Positions 29 to 5,461 of a DNA stretch of 5,461 nt are shown here, in pieces (the stretch's first letter is position 1; each line of letters starts with the position of its first letter). A program made the translations under genes and the position numbers. This stretch comes from Candidatus Mcinerneyibacteriota bacterium (GTDB lineage: Bacteria > Macinerneyibacteriota > Macinerneyibacteria > Macinerneyibacteriales > DSCS01): positions 1 to 5,461 of the forward strand of contig JAFGWL010000066.1 in NCBI GenBank assembly GCA_016937175.1. The letters run 5' to 3'. Below the pieces are notes generated by a model that saw only the letters and a program-made list of their open reading frames with translations, had not been told where the DNA came from and did no database searches.

Positions 29-155
29 GACGACATCCGGAGTCGTCCCGCACTCAAATTTATTTCCTCACGATAAAATCAGATTAGCATCTCATATTCA
101 TCATTAACTCACATGGGGACACTCATCATTATTTGAGTGCGGTGAACCTGACCCC
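29..155. repeat. Inverted-repeat cluster, possible remnant of a REP/RAYT-type or MITE-like element
   Basis: Seen directly: a hairpin GACGAC (29-34) / GTCGTC (42-47) with a 7-nt loop abuts a perfect 12-bp inverted repeat CCGCACTCAAAT (48-59) / ATTTGAGTGCGG (131-142). The right arm can instead fold locally, with CACTCA (120-125) pairing TGAGTG (134-139) across an 8-nt loop, flanked by GGGG (115-118) and CCCC (152-155). The two foldings are mutually exclusive. From memory, GGGGACACTCAT and GGTGAACCTGACCCC resemble sequences found around Y1/IS200-like REP-associated transposase genes. I could not search this. No transposase gene lies in the window, so this would be a non-autonomous copy or a solo end. 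Confidence 0.4.
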
Positions 156-172
156 GTTATACCCGATATACA

Positions 173-236
173 GTTTTCCCATCGCTGAAGTGTGATCTCT
201 GAAAGGGTTTCTCTCCTGCGCACAGGATGGGAAAAC
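173..236. repeat. 11-bp perfect inverted repeat (long-loop stem)
   Basis: GTTTTCCCATC (173-183) is the exact reverse complement of GATGGGAAAAC (226-236), with 42 nt between the arms. The interior contains a small GAAA/TTTC hairpin (201-211). No T-run follows either arm, so it does not look like a rho-independent terminator. It lies upstream of the promoter proposed for the LoaP-like gene. It is therefore either part of the upstream repeat cluster, a DNA-level site, or the 3' end of a transcript from outside the window. Function unknown. Confidence 0.5.
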
Positions 237-296
237 ATTATGTCATAACACTCTTCATTCTATCAGGAAAAGGGACGTTTTCAAGATGATTTCACG

Positions 297-313
297 ACTA
301 ACCGTTCGTTAGT
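297..313. promoter_or_regulatory. Palindrome upstream of the LoaP-like gene, possible operator
   Basis: ACTAAC (297-302) and GTTAGT (308-313) form a perfect 6-bp inverted repeat around a 5-nt centre, CGTTC. The centre is about 55 nt upstream of the predicted transcription start at the ATG, a position typical of an activator site. It could also form a short hairpin. The regulatory role is inferred from position only. Confidence 0.3.
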
Positions 314-325
314 TGCGTTTCTCTC

Positions 326-353
326 TTGCTTTCTTTTGTGTGAAAAGTAAACT
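326..353 (+). promoter_or_regulatory. Candidate promoter of the LoaP-like gene (leaderless geometry)
   Basis: TTGCTT (326-331), a 16-nt spacer and TAAACT (348-353) are followed by 6 nt and then the ATG. On its own this is a weak sigma70-type match: 3/6 at -35 and 4/6 at -10. It is reported because spacer length and distance to the ATG equal those of the two better promoters at 1984-2011 and 2027-2054. Transcription would start at or next to the A of the start codon. No Shine-Dalgarno sequence is visible before the ATG. Confidence 0.4.
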
Positions 354-359
354 TAAAGC

Positions 360-890
360 ATGGAAATAAGATATGATGCTTCTCAACCCTGGCATGTCCT
401 TCAGGTCCAGGGGGGAAAAGAAGAGTATATCAAAAAATTTCTCTCCGAAAACTTTCCGGGAGTCATCCCCTTTCTTCCGAAACGGATCCTTCTGGAAAGA
501 AGACGGGGAAAAATGGAACGCATCGTCAAGCCTCTCTTCCCCGGGTATCTTTTCTTCACGGGCCATTTCACCCACGAAAATCTGGCCCTTCTCCACAAGG
601 CGACTTTCTTTAAAAAAATCCTTTACAATGAATCTTGCGAATTCGCCCGAATCCCTCAGCGTGAAATTGAATTTCTCTTTTCCCTGACCGGGGGAAGCGA
701 TTTCGTGGATATCTCTGATGCAGCGTTTGATGAAAACGACCGGATCCGTGTCATCTCCGGACCACTCAAAGAGATGGAGTTCAGTATCACCAAGGTGGAC
801 CGCCGCCGTCAGCGGGTAACGGCCACCATAGAGTTCTTCAATGAATACCGCGAGATCACTCTATCCTATGATGTTATCGAAAAGTGCTAA
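360..890 (+). CDS. loaP: NusG-paralog transcription antiterminator, LoaP-like
   Basis: This 176-residue protein has the two-domain NusG plan. The N-terminal NGN domain spans about residues 9-105. It contains the opening 'WHVLQVQGGKEE' (11-22) and the family signature 'KPLFPGYLFF' (57-66). The C-terminal KOW domain spans about 125-173, with 'DRIRVISGPLKEMEF' (127-141) followed by a basic 'DRRRQR' (147-152). In the family the NGN domain binds RNA polymerase at the clamp and beta' coiled coil and makes it pass terminators. The IPQREIEFLFSLTG linker, ISGPL and DRRRQR stretches look like LoaP, the specialised paralog that controls polysaccharide and antibiotic operons, rather than housekeeping NusG. 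No secE, rplK or rplA lies nearby, which supports a specialised paralog. The start is fixed by an in-frame TAA at 354-356; there is no ribosome binding site. The last 17 nt overlap the convergent glycosyltransferase gene, and no long co-directional operon follows. LoaP versus another NusG-like subfamily is an inference. Confidence 0.85.
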   Translation: MEIRYDASQPWHVLQVQGGKEEYIKKFLSENFPGVIPFLPKRILLERRRGKMERIVKPLFPGYLFFTGHFTHENLALLHKATFFKKILYNESCEFARIPQREIEFLFSLTGGSDFVDISDAAFDENDRIRVISGPLKEMEFSITKVDRRRQRVTATIEFFNEYREITLSYDVIEKC

Positions 891-1977
891 GGGATTCTAA
901 TATCTTCACGATATTTTCTGTAAACGCATCCCAGGTGTAGGATTCGGCGACCTTTTTCATCTCTTTTACCCGTTCAGGATCGGGATAGGATAAAAGGTCC
1001 CGCACCGCCCGGGCCAGAGCCGGAGCTCCTCCTTCAAGAGAAAAGTATGCCGCCAGGCCTCGGGTCACTTCTTTCATAATGAGGATATCACTCACAAGAA
1101 GGGGGCACTCTCTGAGGGCCGCTTCCAATGGCGGAAGGCCGAACCCTTCGAAGCGTGTGGGAAAGAGAAAGCCGCGGGAGTTTTGAAAGAGGTACTCGCG
1201 CTCTTCATCACTCACCCGCCCCAGGTAGAACAGGCGCTCATGACGATTCAAACCCTCTTCCAGAAGAGGAGAAAAGCGGGCTTCCAGATTGCCTGCGAGG
1301 ATGACATTGACGTCTTTCGGAAATGCCTCTTTCTCCATAGCTTGGATGAGAAGGTCGATCCCCTTCCAGTAACAGATGCGACCCACAAAAAAGAGAAACG
1401 GGCCGTCAGGAAGGCCAGCCGGTTTTTGCTGCGGGCATTCCCTGCCGTGGTCGATCCCCGGAGGATTGACAAAGATCTTCTCTTCGGGAAAGGTGAAAAA
1501 TTCGTTTATCTCCTCTTTGGCCTGAAGAGATGGTGTCATCACAACGTCTGTATATCGGAGTGTCCTCAATGAATTGATCCACCTCTTCAGTTTCATCACA
1601 ACTCCCAGTTTTTCTACTCGCCGGAACGTATAGAAATCATGGATCATCACAAGCGCTTTGGCCGGGCGAGGGTCAAAGAGGAGGTTATGGTTGATCTCCA
1701 GATAAAAGTCCGGAGTATTCCTCTTCACTTGTTTTCTCATCCAGGCCTGATAACGCAGATGCGACCAGTTTTTCACAGCAGGTTTTCCCTGGTACAGATT
1801 CTGTTCCGGATTCAGGTTCAATCGTTTCAGAAGCGTTCTGTCCAGGGGAATGTCTGATAAGACGGTGACCTCATATTTTTGAGCCAGGCGCGGAATCGTC
1901 TCCAGAAGGATCTGCTGCATACTGTGAAGGACAGGACGGGTCAGCTCCCGGCCGTTGATAAAGAGTCTTTTTTTCAT
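874..1977 (-). CDS. GT4-family (GT-B fold) glycosyltransferase
   Basis: This 367-residue protein has the length usual for family 1/GT4 enzymes, which transfer a sugar from a nucleotide-sugar to a lipid-linked or glycan acceptor at the cytoplasmic face of the membrane. The N-terminal acceptor domain covers about residues 1-165, with 'MIHDFYTF' (111-118) and 'TPSLQAKEEI' (148-157). The C-terminal donor domain begins near 'NPPGID' (171-176). It includes 'FVGRICYWKGIDLL' (197-210), with G199, R200 and K205 in the donor-phosphate loop, then 'LGRVSDEE' (252-259). It also has 'FPTRFEGFGLPPLEA' (272-286), where E277 and E285 form the E-x7-E motif of retaining GT4 enzymes. The enzyme looks intact; donor and acceptor cannot be told from sequence. 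The start is the ATG at 1977, with a TACAAT -10 box 6 nt upstream and no ribosome binding site. It is divergent from the ATP-grasp gene at 2061 and overlaps the LoaP-like gene by 17 nt at its 3' end, where no terminator is visible. Confidence 0.92.
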   Translation of the reverse strand: MKKRLFINGRELTRPVLHSMQQILLETIPRLAQKYEVTVLSDIPLDRTLLKRLNLNPEQNLYQGKPAVKNWSHLRYQAWMRKQVKRNTPDFYLEINHNLLFDPRPAKALVMIHDFYTFRRVEKLGVVMKLKRWINSLRTLRYTDVVMTPSLQAKEEINEFFTFPEEKIFVNPPGIDHGRECPQQKPAGLPDGPFLFFVGRICYWKGIDLLIQAMEKEAFPKDVNVILAGNLEARFSPLLEEGLNRHERLFYLGRVSDEEREYLFQNSRGFLFPTRFEGFGLPPLEAALRECPLLVSDILIMKEVTRGLAAYFSLEGGAPALARAVRDLLSYPDPERVKEMKKVAESYTWDAFTENIVKILESLSTFR

Positions 1978-1983
1978 TACTGA

Positions 1984-2011
1984 ATTGTAACAGGTGAAAG
2001 TTTATTTTCCA
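1984..2011 (-). promoter_or_regulatory. Promoter of the glycosyltransferase gene (leaderless geometry)
   Basis: Read on the minus strand: TGGAAA (2006-2011, 4/6 to TTGACA), a 16-nt spacer, TACAAT (1984-1989, 5/6 to TATAAT), 6 nt, then ATG at 1977. The start of transcription would fall at the first base of the coding sequence. Its -35 box is only 15 nt from the -35 box of the divergent promoter at 2027-2054, so one bound regulator could affect both. Confidence 0.6.
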
Positions 2012-2026
2012 TTCTTTTCTTCCCTC

Positions 2027-2054
2027 TGGACGCTCTGCCCTTATCTTCTATAAT
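2027..2054 (+). promoter_or_regulatory. Promoter of the first ATP-grasp gene (leaderless geometry)
   Basis: TGGACG (2027-2032, 4/6 to TTGACA), a 16-nt spacer and a perfect TATAAT (2049-2054) are followed by 6 nt (AGAGAC) and then the ATG at 2061. The expected start of transcription is the A of the ATG or its immediate neighbour, giving an mRNA without a 5' leader. The short GAGA before the ATG is too close to the start codon to act as a Shine-Dalgarno sequence. Confidence 0.65.
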
Positions 2055-2060
2055 AGAGAC

Positions 2061-3209
2061 ATGAAAAGAGGTAAAAACTATTTTTCGCCGTTCAAAGGAC
2101 GGCTGAGAAGTCATTATGTCTTCAAGAAGATCTTTAAAACGCGTTTTTTCCTTAACACTCTCTATCGTTTTTGTTTTCCCAAACGCCTTGTTTTTAAACC
2201 TCCTGCCCGCAATACCGAAGATCTTATACCCGTCCCCTTTCGCCCACCTTCGGGAGATGAAACTTATTACGGGATCTGCCCGGATACAGACTCCTTCCCC
2301 TGGTACACGACTTTTATCGATTTTTGTAAAGAGAATAATCTCAGGTATAAGGTATTCAATATTCACCGGTCTGATTGGCTGGAAGAAGCCCGTCCCTGTG
2401 ACATTGTCCTTTGGCGGCCGTCCAATGCTCAGCACAGCATCAAAGAAGCCCTGATGAAAATCAAGATACTCAACGATATGGGCAAGAAGACTTTTCCTCC
2501 TCTCTACGACCTGATGCTTTATGAAAATAAAAGCATGCAGTATGCTCTTCTCTGCGAAAACAACCTCCCGGTTATTCCGACTTTTATATCCCATGACTAT
2601 GATGAAAGCAGACTCTTTATTCAATCCCGTGACCGATGGCCGTTGATTTCTAAAATCAAAACGGGATCGGCCTCTATAGGTGTCCGCCTTCTAAAAAATG
2701 AAAAAGAAGCTTTGCGATTCCTCAAAAAAGCCTTCTCACGGGGCATACGTTATTTCTGGCACGGAGACCGTCAAAAAGGCTATGTCTTTTTCCAGGACTA
2801 TATGGACAACATGGGGTATGACTTGCGTATTATCACCGCTGGCGAGGCCCTTTTCGGTTACTATCGTTATCCCAGAAAACATGATTTCAGAGCTTCAGGA
2901 AGCGGCCTCTGGACCTTTACAGAACTTCCGCAAGACGCTTTGAAACTAGCACAGAAAGTAAAAAAAACTTTGGGGCTGACCGATTGCTCCGTTGACTTTC
3001 TCCGGGATAAAAACGGAATACTTCATATCATCGAAGTCTCGCTTTTTACTCTGATCTCCTCTCCGGCCCAGGCCATCGTCAACGACCACCCCGGATTTTA
3101 TAAGCAAAACAACGATGGTACTTTTATCTTCCGCGAGGGGCGTCTGTGGCCCCAGCAACTGATGCTCAAGTCGTTTCTTGAAAGAGACGTTTTGCGACAA
3201 TCTTCATAA
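2061..3209 (+). CDS. RimK-like ATP-grasp protein (putative carboxylate-amine ligase)
   Basis: This 382-residue protein fits the ATP-grasp superfamily, whose members activate a carboxylate with ATP and join it to an amine or thiol. A pre-ATP-grasp region holds 'CDIVLWRP' (113-120). It is followed by 'LYENKSMQ' (153-160) and 'NNLPVIPTF' (168-176), the RimK-like helix and strand before the ATP lobe. 'PLISKIKTGSASIGV' (194-208) supplies a likely ATP-binding lysine (K198 or K200) and a flexible loop. 'VFFQDYMDN' (242-250) and 'YDLRII' (253-258) match the nucleotide-binding segment. 'DCSVDFLRD' (308-316) and 'IIEVS' (323-327) match the metal-binding strand with D312 and E325; the usual Asn two residues after the Glu is Ser327. 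The first 47 residues are unusually basic (14 Lys/Arg) and aromatic, and are absent from the neighbouring paralog. The substrate is unknown. The neighbouring glycosyltransferase suggests modification of a glycan or glycolipid (inference). The 3' end overlaps the convergent paralog by 44 nt. Confidence 0.8.
   Translation: MKRGKNYFSPFKGRLRSHYVFKKIFKTRFFLNTLYRFCFPKRLVFKPPARNTEDLIPVPFRPPSGDETYYGICPDTDSFPWYTTFIDFCKENNLRYKVFNIHRSDWLEEARPCDIVLWRPSNAQHSIKEALMKIKILNDMGKKTFPPLYDLMLYENKSMQYALLCENNLPVIPTFISHDYDESRLFIQSRDRWPLISKIKTGSASIGVRLLKNEKEALRFLKKAFSRGIRYFWHGDRQKGYVFFQDYMDNMGYDLRIITAGEALFGYYRYPRKHDFRASGSGLWTFTELPQDALKLAQKVKKTLGLTDCSVDFLRDKNGILHIIEVSLFTLISSPAQAIVNDHPGFYKQNNDGTFIFREGRLWPQQLMLKSFLERDVLRQSS
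3166..3209. other. 44-nt convergent coding overlap with a near-palindrome
   Basis: The last 14 codons of the plus-strand ATP-grasp gene and the last 14 codons of its minus-strand paralog lie on opposite strands of the same DNA. Inside is a near-palindrome CGTTTCTT (3172-3179), GA, AAGAGACG (3182-3189), pairing over 8 bp with one G-T wobble. It could form a hairpin in either transcript. No T-run follows on either strand, so a conventional bidirectional terminator is not supported. Confidence 0.6.
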
Positions 3210-4005
3210 GTTCTGAATGAATTGAACGGCCCTCTTCCTTTTCATCCCGATCCTTGACCGGGTGCCGGGAAAAATCTGCAAGGAAAGGAGAGACCGCTTC
3301 GATGACGATTTTTCCCTCTTTCGGAAAAACACACAGGCGGGCCTCAAAATCCCCGAATCCCGGAATGTTGAAAATCCTTCTCATCAGGTCCTTGTTGCCG
3401 TCAGAAAAAGAACCATCATGGCCTTGGAAGAGGATCTTTCCGTCGATACCGTAGCACCTTTTCTGTAGCCTCTCCGGAGCGGGAGCTTTCAAAAAAAAGA
3501 CCCCTTGCTTAGATCGATGCCCGGGATGGGCTCCGGGAACACCTAACCGAAAAGCCGATTCAGCTCTTTTCCTGGCGCTCCGATACGACTTGAGGCACTC
3601 ATATGTCCACGGCTTTTTCCCCCAATCTTTATAAAAGTACAACGGATAAGCGGCTTGTTTTAAAAAATCAACGGCCTCTTCATAATCGAAGGAGTTAAAA
3701 GCGCTGACTACCGGTAAGCCGAAAGCTTTCAACTGATGATGTTGAAAGGCTCTGTTTTCATAAAGGAGAATCTGGTCAAATGAGGGGTACACTGTTTTCT
3801 TAAGGATTTTTTCCATCAAAAAGATCTTTTCGACAGCTTCATCCCCTTCCCAGGGAGCCCGGGGCAAGGGCCAGATAATTACATCAAATCGTCGTGCCTC
3901 CTGGCGCCAGGAATGTTCATGAATGTAGCAGGGCTCCGCATCGGGATAGGCGAAATGATCCGCCGGTGTTTCACCCCGCCGTTGTACCAGTCCTATTTTG
4001 GCCAA
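3166..4005 (-). CDS. Short, degenerate ATP-grasp paralog (possible pseudoenzyme)
   Basis: This 279-residue protein is a diverged relative of the product of 2061-3209. The shared order is 'FDVIIWPL' (40-47, matching CDIVLWRP), 'KKTVYPSFDQILLYEN' (69-84), 'FGLPVVSAF' (95-103), 'DYEEAVDFL' (107-115), 'KQGVFF' (166-171) and 'IVIEAVSPF' (233-241). Several positions expected for catalysis are changed. The glycine-rich loop after the ATP lysine is replaced by 'YKDWGKKPWTYE' (125-136), the FQDY segment by 'FLKA' (171-174), the metal-binding Asp strand by 'ARLCVF' (222-227), and E-x-N by E-A-V (236-238). It may be an inactive partner subunit, a substrate-binding protein or a very diverged ligase. The start is TTG at 4005, preceded 5 nt away by AAAGGA. 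An in-frame TGA at 4024-4026 limits any upstream start, and no ATG gives a better fit. It also lacks the basic N-terminal extension of its paralog. Confidence 0.72.
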   Translation of the reverse strand: MAKIGLVQRRGETPADHFAYPDAEPCYIHEHSWRQEARRFDVIIWPLPRAPWEGDEAVEKIFLMEKILKKTVYPSFDQILLYENRAFQHHQLKAFGLPVVSAFNSFDYEEAVDFLKQAAYPLYFYKDWGKKPWTYECLKSYRSARKRAESAFRLGVPGAHPGHRSKQGVFFLKAPAPERLQKRCYGIDGKILFQGHDGSFSDGNKDLMRRIFNIPGFGDFEARLCVFPKEGKIVIEAVSPFLADFSRHPVKDRDEKEEGRSIHSELMKIVAKRLFQETT

Positions 4006-4036: not shown

Positions 4037-4064
4037 ATTATAGGGGAAAACAGAAGTCTTTCAA
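4037..4064 (-). promoter_or_regulatory. Strong promoter of the short ATP-grasp paralog
   Basis: On the minus strand, TTGAAA (4059-4064, 5/6 to TTGACA), a 16-nt spacer and a perfect TATAAT (4037-4042) predict a start of transcription near 4030. The leader before the TTG codon would be about 25 nt. This is the best sigma70-type match in the window. It lies downstream of the terminator at 4077-4116, so this gene is probably transcribed independently of the surface-protein gene. Confidence 0.7.
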
Positions 4065-4136: not shown

Positions 4137-5461
4137 CTACTTCAGCATGACCATTTTTTTCGTATACAGGTCTCCGTTGACAATGAGAACAGCATAGTAG
4201 ATACCGCTGGGACATTCATCCCCCCGGTTGTTTTTACCGTCCCAATGGGCCTGGTAATAACCGATGGCCTTCTCTTCGTTTACCAGCGTTGTGACCTTAC
4301 GGCCCCGGGCGTCATAGACCTCCAGTTTCACCCATCCGGCCTTTTCCACCTCATACGGGATATCCGTTTCCGGGTTGAAGGGGTTGGGATAATTCTGTTT
4401 GAGTCTGTTCCCCTCGACTTTGGGAATAAAACTGTATCCTGAATCCTGGTACAGCATATAGATCCCGCTTTCAGTCAGGATCAGTTCATCGGTACTCCAT
4501 GCCACAGGCTCCCAGAGAGCACCCTCTTTTCTGAGGAGAACGCCTGTAGAGCCCCAGGGATTGATGACCGAAGTCCTCTGGCCTTCCCGGCTGAAACGGA
4601 CCGCAAAGGTCTTTGACTCACCGGTCAACGGAGCCGGCGCCTCTTCAGGCTCGTAGAAAAAGGCTTCTACGGAGTCGATTCCCCTGATTGCTACTCCTGA
4701 AAAAGAGGTCGACACTCCGCTGTACAACTCACCCAGGGTGATGTGCATCACATTGTAGAGGACACTATTCAGGTATAATTCGATGGTATGACTTCCGTTG
4801 CTGAAAAGATAGGCATTAAAGGCGTCTCCGCTGACCCATTCAGCAGTATTCACCAGGCCTCCGGGTGCGCCATAATCTTCCATGAGATATGCGTTCACAC
4901 CCCCGTCGATGGTCAGGTAGGCATCGGAAACGTCATGATCCCCGGCCATGTAAGTGTAGACTTTGGCATGCCCCCAGATGACATCATTGGGGATGACATA
5001 GGGGTCCACACCCGAGATCATGGCCGTGACCGTATTGGAAAAATCAGAGCCGGACGATGTATTGACTCCTCTGACTCTGAAATCCCATGTCCCGATACTG
5101 TCAAAGGAGACCGTCAGGCTCGTCACATCGGGACCAGCCGTCTCGGCCAAAGTGTTCCAGAGTCCTGATGCATTGACAGCATACTGGACTTCAAACTTAT
5201 CTTCATTGCCGGAATTGTCCGTCCAGGCAAATTCAATTTCCGCTGCAGCAGGATCGAAGGAGGCCGTCAACCCTGTGGGGGCCGTGATGGGATCCACAAG
5301 ATTCAAGCTGCGTGCATCACTCCACTCCCCGTAGCTGAATACCAGGCTCTCTCCCCGGACACGCCAGTAGTACTCTCCGGCGGGAATCGAGCTTTCGATC
5401 CGGCTGGTGGAAGAGATGTCTTCGGCATCAACGACCACATCAGTGGCAAAGGTCGCGTCGC
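4137..5461 (-). CDS. Secreted surface protein with FN3/Ig-like domains and a type IX-type C-terminal sorting domain (5' end outside window)
   Basis: The frame is open to the window edge. About 440 codons are present, and the true start and any signal peptide lie beyond 5461. The GTG at 5438 is internal: the frame continues upstream through the same FN3-like domain. Numbering from that codon, residues 1-48 are the end of one fibronectin-III/Ig-like domain ('EYYWRVRG', 'YGEWSDARSL'). Residues 52-142 are a second FN3-like domain ('APTGLTASF', 'DFRVRGVN'). Residues 145-345 are a beta-rich region I do not recognise. Residues 349-433 are a FlgD/Ig-like sorting domain with 'NYPNPFNPETDIPY', 'VYDARGRKV', 'HWDGKNNRG', 'SGIYYAVL' and a Lys-rich end. 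In Bacteroidota such a C-terminal domain directs the protein through the type IX system and is cleaved at the outer membrane. Several candidate phyla carry the domain without a proven system. A terminator follows the TAG stop. No functional link to the genes on its left is evident. Confidence 0.88.
   Translation of the reverse strand, partial: DATFATDVVVDAEDISSTSRIESSIPAGEYYWRVRGESLVFSYGEWSDARSLNLVDPITAPTGLTASFDPAAAEIEFAWTDNSGNEDKFEVQYAVNASGLWNTLAETAGPDVTSLTVSFDSIGTWDFRVRGVNTSSGSDFSNTVTAMISGVDPYVIPNDVIWGHAKVYTYMAGDHDVSDAYLTIDGGVNAYLMEDYGAPGGLVNTAEWVSGDAFNAYLFSNGSHTIELYLNSVLYNVMHITLGELYSGVSTSFSGVAIRGIDSVEAFFYEPEEAPAPLTGESKTFAVRFSREGQRTSVINPWGSTGVLLRKEGALWEPVAWSTDELILTESGIYMLYQDSGYSFIPKVEGNRLKQNYPNPFNPETDIPYEVEKAGWVKLEVYDARGRKVTTLVNEEKAIGYYQAHWDGKNNRGDECPSGIYYAVLIVNGDLYTKKMVMLK

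Follow-up and report, generated by a model that had tools for sequence, protein, structure and literature searches.

Three neighbouring genes raise the question whether their mRNAs begin with the start codon itself. They encode a LoaP-like protein, a glycosyltransferase and a first ATP-grasp protein, and they share one layout of -35 box, 16 nt, -10 box, 6 nt and ATG (Table 1). The window, the whole stretch of DNA analyzed here, is a complete contig of 5461 bases (C19) from a genome of 1.88 Mb in 71 contigs with about 50.5% GC. Two genomes were compared with it: G001 (MAG SpSt-1200, DSCS01), a sister species of the same genus and the closest relative compared, and G002 (Candidatus Mcinerneyibacterium aminivorans, VSIX01), which belongs to the same order, is more distant and is very AT-rich (29% GC). 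Since G001 shares its genus and G002 its order, the host is a member of the Candidatus Mcinerneyibacterium order in the candidate phylum that NCBI names 'Candidatus Macinerneyibacteriota'. Genome-wide counts are based on about 914 kb of the host genome with 813 genes, 688 of them with an ATG start, and on 307 ATG genes of G001 for the distance from -10 box to start; genes were called by coding potential, blind to upstream motifs.

Both ends of the contig carry features of their own. A short repeat whose end is of the CCTGACCCC type occupies positions 1-155; C43:9086-9245 (L002) carries a copy of it with 81% identity, and this element may be the reason for the contig end at this point. In G001, the same place is taken by another insert, which is palindromic (GGGGTCAGGTC...GACCTGACCCC). 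At the other end, a minus-strand frame at 4137-5459, cut by the contig end, encodes the C-terminal portion of a protein, with a sorting tail of the FlgD-Ig/T9SS type (TIGR04183, 33.9 bits).

Table 1. Promoters and genes of the window, with database matches and the equivalent sites in the sister species G001
Feature	Position	Strand	Match or G001 equivalent
-35 box TTGCTT, loaP-like gene	326..331	+	identical in G001, 16-nt spacer kept
-10 box TAAACT, loaP-like gene, 6 nt before ATG	348..353	+	G001: TAAAAT, equal distance
loaP-like gene, LoaP-type NusG paralogue, 176 aa, predicted leaderless	360..890	+	NF033641
GT4/GT-B glycosyltransferase, 367 aa, predicted leaderless	874..1977	-	Pfam PF00534, 69 bits; G001 orthologue 60%
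-10 box TACAAT (extended TGn), glycosyltransferase gene, 6 nt before ATG	1984..1989	-	G001: TACTCT with TGn, equal distance
-35 box TGGAAA, glycosyltransferase gene	2006..2011	-	identical in G001
-35 box TGGACG, first ATP-grasp gene	2027..2032	+	identical in G001
-10 box TATAAT, first ATP-grasp gene, 6 nt before ATG	2049..2054	+	G001: TATACT, equal distance
RimK-like ATP-grasp protein, 382 aa, predicted leaderless	2061..3209	+	Pfam PF08443, 40 bits; G001 orthologue 73%
Fourth gene, second ATP-grasp-like protein, 279 aa, TTG start at 4005, SD-led	3166..4005	-	
Promoter TTGAAA-16-TATAAT, fourth gene	4037..4064	-	G001: TTGAAA-16-TATACT

Start codons and two modes of translation start

When the sequence was read again, the coordinates and the promoter geometry of the original prediction proved exact for all three genes. 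Each ATG is the furthest-upstream ATG, GTG or TTG of its open frame, and for the loaP-like gene an upstream start is excluded by an in-frame TAA at 354-356. That all three lack a Shine-Dalgarno (SD) sequence is borne out by weak anti-SD pairing of -2.1 (loaP-like), +0.6 (glycosyltransferase) and -2.9 kcal/mol (first ATP-grasp) vs a genome median of -8.1 kcal/mol; the anti-SD tail was taken as the standard sequence, since a 16S rRNA gene was not found in the host assembly. Pairing is similarly weak in the 24 host genes with TANNNT at 6 nt, with a median of -1.6 kcal/mol. However, the -10 box covers the position of an SD sequence, so that its absence is evidence of limited independence.

We consider it quite likely that the three genes have sigma-70-type promoters which give leaderless mRNAs with a 5'-terminal AUG. 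In each of them, 6 nt separate a putative sigma-70-type -10 box from the ATG. A hexamer at -12 to -7 would place the A of this ATG at the canonical +1, and thus RNA polymerase would start at, or within 1-2 bases of, the A. Translation of the resulting mRNAs would not involve SD pairing; instead, 70S ribosomes would presumably bind the 5' AUG directly, as described for leaderless mRNAs elsewhere. Such genes would form a minority class in the host genus, beside a dominant SD-led class that includes the fourth gene of the window. For the three genes, what we infer here is where the transcripts begin and how ribosomes initiate on them.

The fourth gene is indeed leadered, as had been claimed: its TATAAT is distant from the start, 31 nt lie between -10 box and TTG codon, and the predicted leader of 25 nt contains the SD-like AAAGGA. 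In its G001 orthologue, which lies on contig C45 and encodes a 46% identical protein, 34 nt separate the -10 box from a GTG start. Thus the distance drifts between the two species in this leadered gene. A Pfam search with the fourth-gene protein gave no match of its own; its similarity to the first ATP-grasp protein is weak (33% over 145 aa). The proposal that the window holds two modes of translation start is therefore real at the level of sequence, with a 6-nt set that is predicted to be leaderless on one side and the leadered fourth gene on the other.

Conservation and genome-wide occurrence of the promoters

The three promoters were compared with those of G001, where the orthologous LoaP-like, glycosyltransferase and first ATP-grasp proteins are 69, 60 and 73% identical. 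The G001 promoters read TTGCTT-16-TAAAAT-6-ATG, TGGAAA-16-TACTCT-6-ATG (with the TGn kept) and TGGACG-16-TATACT-6-ATG, respectively, and all three align with those of the host ungapped. Identity amounts to 18/18 positions in the -35 boxes and 9/9 at T1, A2 and T6 of the -10 boxes, while the other -10 positions reach 5/9. Outside the boxes, 21/48 spacer positions, 5/18 positions of the 6-nt gap and 19/33 positions in the 11 nt above the -35 boxes are identical, together 45/99. At this 45% background, identity of 27/27 core positions has a probability of about 6e-10.

These numbers bear on the suspicion that the agreement among the three genes is mere chance, noticed afterwards. TANNNT stands 6 nt ahead of the start in about 3.5% of ATG genes. 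The loaP-like promoter is weak on its own (consensus score 8/12), as the original prediction had cautioned. Yet finding three such genes among the four with complete starts has a probability of about 2e-4, before correction for the post-hoc choice, and the cross-species conservation of the promoters, including that of loaP, settles the question. The original prediction had called the loaP match the weakest of the three and had remarked that some agreement could be accidental; we regard chance as extremely improbable.

Alternatively, the mRNAs might carry longer leaders from promoters further upstream, the -10-like boxes near the ATG being an AT-rich coincidence. TANNNT is a loose motif that is present at every distance, and the region upstream of loaP includes a conserved block (window 146-250). 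However, this block is better read as the leader of a divergent gene with a minus-strand promoter of its own (TTGAAA-16-TAGAAT, see below), both hexamers and both distances are exactly conserved in the three upstream regions, and such leaders would have no SD available. The ATP-grasp gene is 83 bp away from the glycosyltransferase gene in the host and 1.5 kb in G001, and the sequences upstream of its -35 box differ between both species, yet the promoter is kept. The conserved upstream unit is thus a short one that reaches no further than the start codon, and promoters further upstream appear very unlikely as the source of these mRNAs.

The original prediction had named a lack of genome-wide enrichment of such -10 boxes as grounds against it, and the counts speak otherwise. 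Both the host and G001 show a sharp peak at the 6-nt distance, which is confined to ATG starts and whose genes as a rule possess -35 boxes but no SD sequence. In the host, 24/688 genes have a TANNNT separated from the ATG by exactly 6 nt vs a mean of 8.2 at control distances of 0-4 and 8-14 nt (Poisson 5e-6), and in G001 in 14/307 genes vs 2.9 (2e-6). Full promoters, defined by a score of at least 9/12, occur at this distance 12 times in the host and 10 times in G001, while shuffled sequences gave expectations per position of 0.81 and 0.45. GTG and TTG starts showed no peak of -10 boxes at 6 nt genome-wide. Within the 6-nt set, -35 boxes matching at least 4/6 positions are found in 58% (host) and 79% (G001) of the genes vs 37 and 31% of the controls, TGn is enriched relative to controls, and SD sequences are rare (4% and 0%, vs 56% and 55% among all ATG genes). 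A second, broad hump of -10 boxes at 18-28 nt, accompanied by SD sequences, represents the leadered majority. In G002, no clear peak at 6 nt was seen, with 2 full promoters vs 0.75 expected. Thus a predicted leaderless class is supported within the host genus, by host and G001, and G002 lacks a clear peak.

From the excess at 5-7 nt (about 26/688 host and 13/307 G001 genes), it follows that roughly 4% of the genes are predicted to be leaderless in a genome that is mainly SD-led. Further candidates comprise an ArsR-type regulator, a DHH phosphoesterase, a prepilin-like protein, an M28 peptidase and a GT2 enzyme. In the ArsR-type gene (C10:48058-48348), the palindrome ATATAAGAATATTCTTATAT fills the spacer between the -35 and -10 boxes (L041, about 8348-8390, minus strand) and is identical in G001 (C20), which makes self-regulation probable. 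The spacing common to the three genes must be divided into its two parts. While the 6-nt distance is conserved and enriched, the shared 16-nt spacer is the norm of the genome: 52/107 leadered-type promoters have it and it is their commonest spacer as well, and we therefore rejected it as a mark of leaderless genes.

The peak has shoulders in the host, with 11 genes at 5 nt and 16 at 7 nt vs about 8 at control distances. They could indicate that the promoters are real, but that initiation is variable or falls 1-5 nt from the ATG, which would yield minimal leaders or mixed 5' ends, close to leaderless in function. Start-site selection downstream of a -10 box is known to be variable, and a displacement by 1-3 nt would either add a few leader bases or place the 5' end within the AUG. 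On the other hand, the peak itself lies at 6 nt, where the A of the ATG falls on the canonical +1. Furthermore, 7/10 orthologous pairs with TANNNT at 6 nt keep it there, compared with 36/138 for the remaining distances (Fisher 0.007) and 0/5 for 5 or 7 nt. Initiation away from the ATG is hence unlikely, if less so than promoters further upstream. Taken together, the 6-nt enrichment and the indel-free conservation in G001 support the prediction that transcripts of the three genes are leaderless. In practice, start codons in host-type genomes could be fixed by looking for a -10 box at this distance from an ATG.

The LoaP-like protein and a probable divergent leader

The LoaP-like protein scores 140.1 bits against NCBIfam NF033641 (antiterm_LoaP), above the family cutoff of 125. 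Its gene has the glycosyltransferase and ATP-grasp genes as neighbors in the host, and in G001 a TupA-like ATP-grasp and a GT2 gene are divergent from loaP. Upstream of the gene, positions 146-259 of the window are 93% identical to G001, whereas the LoaP proteins share only 69%. A minus-strand promoter (TTGAAA at 284-279, 16 nt, TAGAAT at 262-257; TTGAAG-16-TAAAAT in G001) would give a transcript that begins at about position 250 and leads away from loaP, in G001 toward the TupA-like ATP-grasp and GT2 genes. Midway between the divergent promoters, an inverted repeat, ACTAAC-CGTTC-GTTAGT (window 295-315), was observed; CCGTTCGTTA is kept in G001, and the repeat is a possible operator.

The divergent leader contains the hairpin UCCUG-UGCG-CAGGA (UCCUGUGCGCAGGA) with a UNCG tetraloop at 227-214 of the minus strand, and the same hairpin is found in G001. 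LoaP of Bacillus velezensis depends on a UNCG hairpin within its target leader (PMC12691694), which makes the hairpin of the host a candidate recognition element and the conserved divergent leader a candidate LoaP target. G002 has a leader-like site as well: UCCUG-UUCG-CAGGA at C102:973-987 (L152) follows the strong promoter TTGACA-17-TATAAT by about 28 nt, and this hairpin and the G002 loaP are on different contigs. One Treponema and one Clostridia genome contain sequences that match the UNCG hairpin exactly or nearly; the three that were checked are located inside coding frames and were dismissed as chance. We also rejected block 146-250 as leader of loaP itself, because the good promoter conserved here is on the opposite strand, with a transcript that would run through the block, and the UNCG loop exists on the minus strand only. 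A free-energy test of the block (z -2.9 on the plus, -0.6 on the minus strand) left the strand undecided, and an Rfam search gave nothing above the gathering score.

One might speculate that, in this candidate phylum, both modes of translation are joined in an antiterminator switch, in which a leaderless loaP controls a divergent polysaccharide operon with a long, structured leader and a LoaP-bound UNCG hairpin. This idea is rather doubtful. If it were true, LoaP synthesis would respond to conditions that favor leaderless translation. The candidate LoaP leader RNA may be worth more than the leaderless finding alongside it.

Comparison with known systems

Leaderless genes are a bacterial class already known, a minority mode of translation start, of which the host is a further case. 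In the survey of Zheng et al. (2011; PMC3160421), they make up 1.8-6.9% of genes in those Spirochaetes that possess them (3.9% on average) and on average 4.2% in Firmicutes, while Actinobacteria and Deinococcus-Thermus are far higher. The predicted share of about 4% in the host is within the range of the former two and inside the span known from many phyla of bacteria. The three genes resemble the 'TA-led' genes of that survey, in which a -10-like box is located some 10 nt upstream of the start codon and an SD is missing. However, the survey predates the candidate phylum of the host, and the class predicted here is backed by promoter footprints in two species. Such a cross-species footprint documents a minority leaderless class in a poorly studied candidate phylum and widens its known spread.

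A -10 box directly before the open reading frame is also found in the -10-adjacent ORFs of Deinococcus-Thermus, which give leaderless mRNAs (Zhong et al., 2025; PMC12340547), and in the leaderless transcriptome of Mycobacterium tuberculosis (PMC3898074). In contrast to the host with its roughly 4%, about a third of the genes of D. radiodurans are leaderless (PMC12340547) and the leaderless set of M. tuberculosis is extensive (PMC3898074). The host differs from both systems furthermore in its good -35 boxes at a 16-nt spacer and in its otherwise SD-led genome. The LoaP-like protein resembles LoaP of B. velezensis (PMC12691694) in that it exceeds the NCBIfam cutoff of this family; the gene of its G001 orthologue is divergent from ATP-grasp/GT2 genes of the surface-polysaccharide type, whose leader carries a candidate UNCG hairpin. 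Unlike in B. velezensis, loaP of the host is predicted to be leaderless, and the leader hairpin is a candidate element.
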